A stretch of 64,000 nucleotides of DNA, from NCBI GenBank assembly GCA_002067895.1, contig MVRE01000011.1, positions 1 through 64,000 on the forward strand, read 5' to 3'. Source of the stretch: Methanoregula sp. PtaU1.Bin051 (GTDB taxonomy: Archaea > Halobacteriota > Methanomicrobia > Methanomicrobiales > Methanospirillaceae). The notes beneath the pieces are model-generated. The model searched no databases, had not been told where the DNA came from, and saw only the letters and a list, made by a program, of their open reading frames with translations. Below are positions 9,984 to 51,027 of this stretch, piece by piece (the stretch's first letter is position 1; the number at the start of each line of letters is the position of its first letter). The translations under genes and the position numbers were made by a program.

Positions 9984-10107
9984 CGGGGGCACCGGCGAGG
10001 ATTGGGGTGCCGGTACGTTCTTTGAGTAACATCGGCCCCGGCAGGCGCATCATGTATGGTCGCTTTTTCCGGCCTTTCGGAAGAGTATCTTCTGAGTCAC
10101 GACAAAA

Positions 10108-11240
10108 TTATCGTACGATAACTGAGTTCGGATCGGCCGGTATCCGGGCGATGAGTTCATCGGTAAGAGGGGTAAGCGAGCGGGCGATCGTTATCATCTC
10201 CTCTTTATCAGGAGTCCCCATCAGCCAGAATGAACTGTTATCATCCTGCCAGTGGAGCTGGTTCCTGCCGTCACCCTCGATCCACTCTCCGTTCGTTCCA
10301 TTGATGACGACGATAACGGGGGTGCCGTTCAAGAGTGCGGGTGGTGGCGCGCCTTTTCCTGGAGTCTGGTAGAAACCAAGGAAGTCAGGGGAATCAGCTT
10401 TATGGAAGTGATAATTGATTTCAGGTTCTACCGTAAATTCGCATTCAGACAGGTTAAATCCCGGAGGGAGATATGCAGGGAATTTTGGATCCATATCAAC
10501 CTTTTTCCGGATAAACGAGATCTCGCACATATCTCTGGGAGTTGGATGGATCCACGGTTTATATTCCTGCGCACCTGTCGGAACTGTAAAGGCAAATTTG
10601 TTGTCCGGAATGCCGTTGTTGACTAAAATATTCCGGTAATCTATTGTCCGGTATTCATCCGGCCCGGCACTGGTTGCATTTTCCCGCACGAATGATATCC
10701 TTACAATCATCCAGCTGTCACAGTCGATCCAGATACGGCTCTTTCTGGGGTACGGATCGAAGCTCAATGAATGGGACACATCCAGAACGAATGTGGAATA
10801 CCCATCCACGATCTCATTTCCAACGAATTGTGGCGGATACTGTTTCAGGATCGTGCTGTATTTCAAGGGAAAGTCGATGGTATTAAGGAAAATCTGGTCT
10901 TCTGCAACAAATTGTGTATAGGTATTTGATTCGTTCGAATATTTCCAGCCTGTCGAACCATTTGATATCGTTATTCCTGTATGGTTGCCGGATCTGTCAA
11001 AGGATTCGATCCAGTATTTATCCGGCCTTTTGACTATGATATGACCGGTTTCAGATAGTAGGTAATTTCCGTCTGTACTGTTTTCCTGCACGGTCGCCGA
11101 ATAGTCAGTGACAGATTCCTGATGGCCGATGAACTTTGCCGATATTTCATCTGCCGTTATTTTTTTTCCTGTACTGTACTGCATCCTGTCACAATTACCA
11201 AAATAATAATACATATCAGGAAGCTTCGCATGTCCTTCAT
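10108..11240 (-). CDS. Predicted lipoprotein with LolA-like and DUF4367-like regions, frameshifted in an A8 run
   Basis: The body (10108 to about 11190) encodes a secreted-type protein of about 350 residues. Its N-terminal two thirds resemble LolA-like lipoprotein carriers (SRIWIDCDSWMIVRISF) and its C-terminal part resembles DUF4367 (LHWQDDNSSFWLMGT). An ATG at 11240 has a strong ribosome binding site (AAGGAG, 11 nt upstream) and encodes a lipoprotein signal peptide with lipobox VTGC. That frame reaches a stop directly after an A8 run (11160-11167). One extra A, or a -1 ribosomal slip, would join it to the body. The alternative in-frame ATG at 11214 lacks both signal peptide and binding site. 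The full gene is therefore probably 10108-11240; whether it is a mutation, phase variation or sequencing error cannot be told. Confidence 0.75.
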
Positions 11241-11309
11241 CGGTGATTATCTCCTTATTATTGATATTGCATCCATCTTGTTGGTATTATTTCATTCCAA
11301 AAAAAGGTA

Positions 11310-11504
11310 TTATCCCGGTGTTGTTAACCGGTAATCGTACCATGCACGGGTGATAAGCTGCAAATTGTTGTATCCTCCCCATTCTGAAGATACTCTGACA
11401 TACTGTTGCGGTTCTGTGGGCGGATCTTCACGCCAAGTATTATATGGGAAAATCCATACACCATACGCGTCAGCCTGAGGGGAATCGTGATATTCAGGGG
11501 CGTA
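11310..11504 (-). other. Start-less open frame, possible 3' remnant of a lost gene
   Basis: A 64-codon open frame without a start codon runs from just after a TGA at 11505-11507 to a TAA at 11310-11312. Its predicted peptide has a protein-like composition (VWIFPYNTWREDPPTEPQQY). It overlaps, in another frame, the decayed end of the HicA-like sequence. It may be the tail of a gene truncated by recombination. No family was recognised. Confidence 0.3.
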
Positions 11505-11620
11505 TCAGGAGTCTTTTTTTTCATGCGGACATGGCTGCCTTTCTGCCGGACAAAAGAGAATCCTGCCCGGGTCAGTGCCCGGATTGCATCTTTTCACGAA
11601 ACAACCGGGAGATGCTTCAA
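11470..11620 (-). pseudogene. hicA: Broken HicA-family toxin gene
   Basis: Reading from a TTG at 11620 that overlaps the hicB stop, the frame gives KHLPVVS, then a TGA stop (11594-11596) where the family has glycine. It then continues DAIRALTRAGFSFVRQKGSH, including the conserved GSH histidine, and KITIP-like residues (LNITIP). After about 11473 the similarity stops. The start (ATG to TTG), the premature stop and the lost 3' end all indicate an inactivated HicA mRNA-interferase. The TTGA overlap mirrors the usual coupled arrangement of a HicB/HicA pair. Confidence 0.75.
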
Positions 11621-11847
11621 ATCGCAACCTCAATGACACGCGCCCCTTTGCTAGGGACGATATCCTCGTCAGGTTCGAGATAGAGAGAGATTGCTTCCCG
11701 GATATTCTGCTTGGCTTCTTTAAGGTTCCTCCCCTGTGAGATGCAGCCGGGAAGAGCGGGGACGGTAACGACATACCAGCCGTCCTCTCCTTTTGTTATC
11801 ACGACTTTCAGGTTCATTCCTTTGCTCTCATCTGACTGAAGTTCCAT
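11617..11847 (-). CDS. hicB: HicB-family antitoxin (orphan)
   Basis: This is a short HicB/UPF0150 protein of 76 residues, or 66 if it starts at the internal ATG at 11817. The partial RNase-H-like fold is recognisable: LKVVITKGEDGWYVVTVPALPGCISQGRNLKEAKQNIREAI. It lacks the C-terminal DNA-binding extension of longer HicB proteins. Its presumed toxin partner downstream carries an early stop. The antitoxin is therefore an orphan that may remain because it neutralises other HicA toxins in the genome, or it may simply await loss. Confidence 0.85.
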   Translation of the reverse strand: MELQSDESKGMNLKVVITKGEDGWYVVTVPALPGCISQGRNLKEAKQNIREAISLYLEPDEDIVPSKGARVIEVAI

Positions 11848-11969
11848 TTCCGGCCGTCAGGGAATAATCTTTGTTGTAGAACGTTACGCGGGGTGAAAAA
11901 AACCTCACCGTCCCTTGCATTTCCCTTGCAGATCGCGCCGGCTGTTCCCGCGGGACCGGGCCCCGGTGC

Positions 11970-12221
11970 TCACCTCTTCCCCTTGTCCCGCCCCTTCTCC
12001 GCAAGCACGAGCGTCCTGCCCCGGACCTCGACAAGCGTCGCACCGGTCCGGGCCGCGATCGCCTGAGGGTCGATGTCCGTGCTCTGGAGCCACTTCACCT
12101 TCACGACTTTCCGCTTCTTGAGCTGCGCCTTTATCTCGCCAATCATCGTCTCCGAGCAGCCGGACTTGCCGATCCAGACCGTCGGCTTCAAGTCCTGCAT
12201 GGACCGGTCACTCTTCTCCAT
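11970..12221 (-). CDS. CRM/YhbY-domain RNA-binding protein
   Basis: This is an 83-residue single-domain protein of the YhbY/CRM family, which binds RNA in ribosome precursors. The GxxG loop is seen in WIGKSGCSETMIGEIKAQLKKR, followed by VKVKWLQSTDIDPQAIAARTGATLVEVRGRTLVL. Its ATG overlaps the stop of the RNase P gene by 1 bp (TAATG), so the two are coupled. The open frame continues upstream through the other gene, but only the MEKSDRSMQDLKPT start gives the family N-terminus. The tail is basic. Confidence 0.92.
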   Translation of the reverse strand: MEKSDRSMQDLKPTVWIGKSGCSETMIGEIKAQLKKRKVVKVKWLQSTDIDPQAIAARTGATLVEVRGRTLVLAEKGRDKGKR

Positions 12222-50852: not shown

Positions 50853-50881
50853 CGGATTGAATACCTAAGAGGCGCGAGCAG

Positions 50882-50956
50882 GGGCTTGTGGCTTAGCTTG
50901 GACATAGCGCCGGGCTTCTAACCCGGATGTCGGGGGTTCAAATCCCCCCAGGCCCG
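50882..50956 (+). tRNA. tRNA-Arg (anticodon TCT)
   Basis: This is a 75-nt tRNA. The acceptor stem is GGGCTTG paired with CAGGCCC plus discriminator G. The anticodon stem CCGGG/CCCGG encloses the loop CTTCTAA, so the anticodon is TCT, reading AGA/AGG. The T arm is TTCAAAT within CGGGGG/CCCCC-type stem. No intron was seen and CCA is not encoded. A TATA box lies about 35 bp upstream. Confidence 0.95.
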
Positions 50957-51027
50957 TTCAACACCCGGTGAATTTTTCTCCTATCGTAGTTTCCCGATAT
51001 AATAACAGAAGGGAGAATGTTAAAAAG

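Follow-up and report, generated by a model that had tools for sequence, protein, structure and literature searches.

The minus strand of this archaeal contig carries, at ATG 11240, a lipoprotein signal that ends in a stop codon right after a run of eight As, and a long open frame for a secreted protein lies just beyond it in another register. Are these the two pieces of a single gene, and if so, what does the break between them represent? The question was addressed in the window, i.e. the whole stretch of 64,000 nucleotides of Methanoregula sp. PtaU1.Bin051 that was analysed, with comparisons to other sequence of the same genome and to other genomes.

A lipoprotein gene in two frames

The elements of the locus are as follows.

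11249..11256 (place approximate), minus strand: Shine-Dalgarno-like AAGGAG, about 10 nt ahead of ATG 11240
11157..11240, minus strand: short ORF encoding a lipoprotein signal with lipobox VTGC; relatives carry an in-frame signal at the same point
11160..11167, minus strand: A8 tract (T8 on the plus strand) at the frame break; the signal frame reads GAA AAA AAA TAA
10108..11156, minus strand: secreted body, read in the -1 frame, with DUF2092 and DUF4367; ATG 11214 is its mechanical ORF start

Preceded by AATAAGGAGATAATCACCG, with AAGGAG ahead of the start codon, ATG 11240 opens a frame of 27 codons for MKDMRSFLICIIILVIVTGCSTVQEKK, and its stop (TAA 11159-11157) directly adjoins the A8 (11167-11160). 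A pattern and hydropathy scan found the n-region, the hydrophobic stretch and the Cys-bearing lipobox all present (MKDMRSFLICIIILVIVTGC). The signal is not in frame with the mature protein: the body frame, offset by -1 at the A8, is open from 11286 to 10111 (392 codons), with its stop at 10110-10108. It is the top coding frame in 9 of the 9 windows scored, although its codon score as a whole is low at 0.107, close to the 0.084 that marks the 5th percentile in conserved genes. Beyond the break it runs undisturbed for about 350 codons, with no second lesion seen. The first-pass annotation had described a strong ribosome binding site, a VTGC lipobox signal, a stop right after A8 and a body frame reached by a -1 slip or one added A, and all of this is borne out by the sequence.

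When 177 kb (the window plus contig C2 of the same genome) were scanned for short ORFs that combine a Shine-Dalgarno motif with a lipoprotein signal and adjoin an open frame of 150 codons or more, the ATG 11240 locus was the sole case. Second-order Markov controls gave one case in 5 x 177 kb, a figure that may understate chance as the controls contain no real genes. Split signal peptides were also scanned for more widely, again with a Shine-Dalgarno motif required: 577 kb of the source genome gave 15 split candidates and 57 intact signal genes, and 260 kb of the congener G004 gave 3 and 17, respectively. Only the ATG 11240 gene is taken as real among the 15; for the remaining 14, inspection, rather than an individual homology check, points to antisense frames or overlapping genes.

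Homology is a stronger argument than the chance scan, because the in-frame signal peptides of relatives end just ahead of the point where homology to the body starts. The body matches DUF2092 (residues 28-216; 27.9 bits, Pfam cut-off 21.2) and DUF4367 (residues 246-347; 36.4 bits, cut-off 22.1), and a LolA-like match stays below threshold. Matches to the body occur in 30 of 101 genomes, its own included, and in none of the seven other genus members among them; the body alone, searched against the genome_contigs collection, gave no match. Most full-length alignments begin at query residue 17-23, just past the tract, and that with L020 at residue 10. Thirteen relatives among the loci fetched have a readable N-terminus. 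All 13 carry an in-frame hydrophobic signal ahead of the body, with a clear lipobox in 12 and an ambiguous one in L017, and none has a run of at least six between lipobox and body, two of them having A5. Since these signals sit just ahead of the body homology, the comparison identifies the signal ORF and the body as one lipoprotein gene in two frames, split by one base as first proposed. It resembles the DUF2092/LolA-like and DUF4367 lipoproteins of related archaea of the same family and order in both domains, their order and the signal-peptide junction, but identity reaches about 30% at best and the signal is here in another frame. Single-sequence structure prediction of the body had a mean pLDDT of 32.7, and nothing was concluded from the model.

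A private island with decayed neighbours

The split gene lies in a 2.0-kb island with the following features.

9986..12000, no strand: island private to the source genome
11617..11847, minus strand: intact hicB-like antitoxin gene (PF15919, E 1.1e-10), with relatives elsewhere in the genus
11478..11613, minus strand: hicA remnant (PF07927, E 7.8e-10), lacking a start, with a nonsense TGA ahead of KDAIRAL and its C-terminal part lost near 11478 (comparison with L046)
11328..11504, minus strand: headless C-terminal gene fragment of 58 amino acids, lacking a start

Save for some unmatched stretches, the window runs colinear with G004, a congener assembled as a single contig, and in G004 positions 9985 and 12001 are neighbours. 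The island is lacking in all seven congeners: its flanks are 62 bases apart in five of them, about 280 in G007 and about 530 in G003, in which the flank is also partly unmatched. The 58-residue fragment has matches of 34-36% identity in G074, G086 and G050 (101 genomes searched, its own included). The setting of the gene is one of acquisition and decay.

Two further observations were made in the window. A 14-nt inverted repeat (10082-10095 / 11383-11396; 93% complementary) flanks the lipoprotein gene and is near chance, with about 0.4 expected by our own estimate. Elsewhere, 79 bases at 50881-50959 are 98.7% identical to G004 against a background of about 75%, and are probably a tRNA gene.

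A probable authentic frameshift

The first-pass annotation recognised the one-base split and offered phase variation, slippage or sequencing error to explain it; gene decay and a simple, authentic frameshift were not among its options. It is this omitted reading that the island context now favours, given the broken hicA, the gene fragment and the absence of the island from the seven congeners. We consider it probable, with some reserve, that the locus is a real, acquired lipoprotein gene carrying an authentic one-base frameshift, and that it is off or nearly off, as the body is out of frame and translation from ATG 11240 ends at 27 residues.

The ancestral gene would have encoded a lipoprotein signal in frame with a secreted DUF2092 and DUF4367 (LolA-like) body, and would have been gained, most likely by horizontal transfer, within the 2-kb island found in one Methanoregula genome only. 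Strand slippage in the A-run just past the lipobox, most simply the loss of one A, may then have put the body out of frame. Normal translation would now yield the 27-residue peptide, although -1 slippage at A AAA AAA could still let some of the full-length product be made, and replication slippage could allow reversion. The break is presumably recent or tolerated, since the body is otherwise undisturbed over about 350 codons.

In favour of an authentic frameshift are the in-frame signals of the 13 readable relatives, the absence of the island from all congeners, the remnant state of hicA and another neighbour, the absence of frameshifts in 145 conserved genes (see below) and a tract that is not conserved in the family. 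Against it stand the lack of a second lesion in the body, which would equally be expected of a recoded or switching gene, and a further gene for a secreted protein that is likewise interrupted at an A-run close to its signal, which hints at something more systematic. As to pseudogene status, the body has no second lesion, its neighbours are decayed, and a close orthologue for a comparison of selection is lacking.

Accuracy of the assembly

An error of sequencing or assembly would make this a plain lipoprotein gene whose true tract is in frame. Homopolymers are a classic site of error, the body is otherwise intact and the genome is a draft of 23 contigs. We compared the genes of G004 with the window (64 genes) and with contig C2 (81), i.e. 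145 conserved genes and 37,836 aligned residues; earlier versions of the survey had used 61-66 genes and slightly different cut-offs. Eighteen genes were flagged (14 of 81 in C2, 4 of 64 in the window), and by our reading they are explained by starts set too far upstream, a divergent intergenic region, the tail of a neighbour, loss of a domain in frame, paralogues or the end of the window; one 14-residue match at E 0.036 was taken as chance. After this inspection no frameshift remained among the 145 genes. All 35 runs of at least seven in conserved aligned coding sequence, 11 of them of exactly eight, are unbroken, and 47 of 48 simulated single-base deletions were detected. The assembly is thus accurate at homopolymer runs in general, and a single error at this A8 is unlikely in view of the unshifted genes and intact runs of eight. 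These results lower the standing of the error first suggested, which we regard as an unlikely source of the break.

Possible phase variation and a second broken gene

Replication slippage might instead toggle the lipoprotein within a population, the assembly having caught the off state. The gene does code for a surface protein and has the tract at its 5' end, as in homopolymer phase variation at 5' poly(A) runs such as that of the Mycoplasma fermentans surface lipoprotein P78 (PMC3711429; survey in PMC2831843), where the run is likewise near the 5' end and one base off frame; here, a single tract length is known, from one assembly, and the tract is not kept in relatives. Of the 18 archaeal genomes in the survey, 'Candidatus Methanoregula' alone had more poly(A)/(T) tracts of 8 and 9 in its coding genes than expected (PMC2831843). 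In 177 kb of the source genome, A/T runs of 7 and 8 number 57 and 24 against 20.7 and 5.6 expected under a second-order Markov model, and in 260 kb of G004 they number 149 and 45 against 78.2 and 28.2. In the 177 kb, runs drop sharply past length 8, with 2 of length 9 against 24 of length 8. Over the whole genome, which has 182 runs of exactly 8 and 110 overlapping 9-mer matches, this cut-off is less marked, and it was not relied on.

A second secreted-protein gene is broken in a similar place.

G000:C2:33675-32505 (L065:13675-12505), minus strand: secreted-protein gene broken at A6 right past the signal peptide

ATG 33675 of C2, missed by the wider scan, encodes MKGNLIPLAILVLCLILVSPALAQD, and the body (NPYRNAG...) continues in another frame past the A6. 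The gene has no Pfam match. In a tandem paralogue downstream, the corresponding junction has two As only and stays in frame. One could imagine a set of Methanoregula secreted-protein genes switched by A-run slippage at the junction of export signal and mature protein, with the lipoprotein and the C2 gene as two members caught off, a proposal that we hold to be improbable.

Several results speak against switching at the lipoprotein gene. No tract of at least six is kept at the junction in the 13 relatives, the neighbourhood is decaying, and with 182 A/T runs of exactly eight genome-wide, the A8 itself is not rare in the source genome. MutS and MutL normally repair slippage loops. Both have matches in all eight genus genomes, in none of which NucS was matched; a defect in repair is therefore unsupported as the source of tract instability. 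Moreover, the evidence comes from one assembly, and the gene is in no other genome compared. A search on archaeal homopolymer phase variation and Methanoregula frameshifts, most subscription journals lying outside it, found no study of a lipoprotein that switches in the genus. Taken with the points in its favour, phase variation of this gene seems quite doubtful.

Possible recoding and internal initiation

It is also improbable that the full-length lipoprotein is made in a fixed small amount through transcript slippage or a programmed -1 frameshift at the A8. A slippery heptamer, A AAA AAA, is present at the break directly ahead of the stop, and similar runs are known to shift: reporter tests of poly-A cassettes of magnesium chelatase genes, from a cluster that includes methanogens, gave frameshifting of 10% with 7 As, 40% with 9 and 63% with 11 (PMC3711429). 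In archaea, -1 frameshifting at an A-rich site has been proven for fucA1 of Saccharolobus (Sulfolobus) solfataricus (PMC8211752), which is, like our gene, broken by -1 at a slippery stretch rich in A and one base off its full-length relatives. However, fucA1 has rare codons, a putative stem-loop and a proven product, whereas the split lipoprotein gene has no significant fold and is known from sequence alone. No stimulatory RNA fold was found around the A8, where folding is no better than that of shuffles (z -0.39 and -0.32), and the site is not kept by the family. Furthermore, recoding that yields a full-length export form and nothing else brings no gain, and a singleton frame break is as a rule an indel or an error (PMC3711429). 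Programmed slippage, raised by the first-pass annotation, is accordingly unsupported. Leaky expression through A AAA AAA then TAA is plausible, as the run is slippery and similar runs shift by at least 10% in reporter tests.

Finally, it is very improbable that the body is translated alone as a cytoplasmic protein from ATG 11214 or 11184: both are in the body frame, but neither has a clear ribosome-binding site, the first 16-22 residues that they open are without homology and the relatives are exported, in keeping with the early doubt about 11214 as a true start.

Implications

Automated gene calling would pick ATG 11214 and overlook the lipoprotein nature of the product, an annotation that can now be corrected. 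As it stands, the locus represents one more authentic frameshift. The literature found on homopolymer phase variation in methanogens offers a statistical hint only (PMC2831843). If several secreted genes of the genus were to switch at A-runs by their signals, this would be direct evidence of homopolymer phase variation in a methanogen, and such a switching set, if true, would be an archaeal, non-pathogen counterpart of contingency loci.
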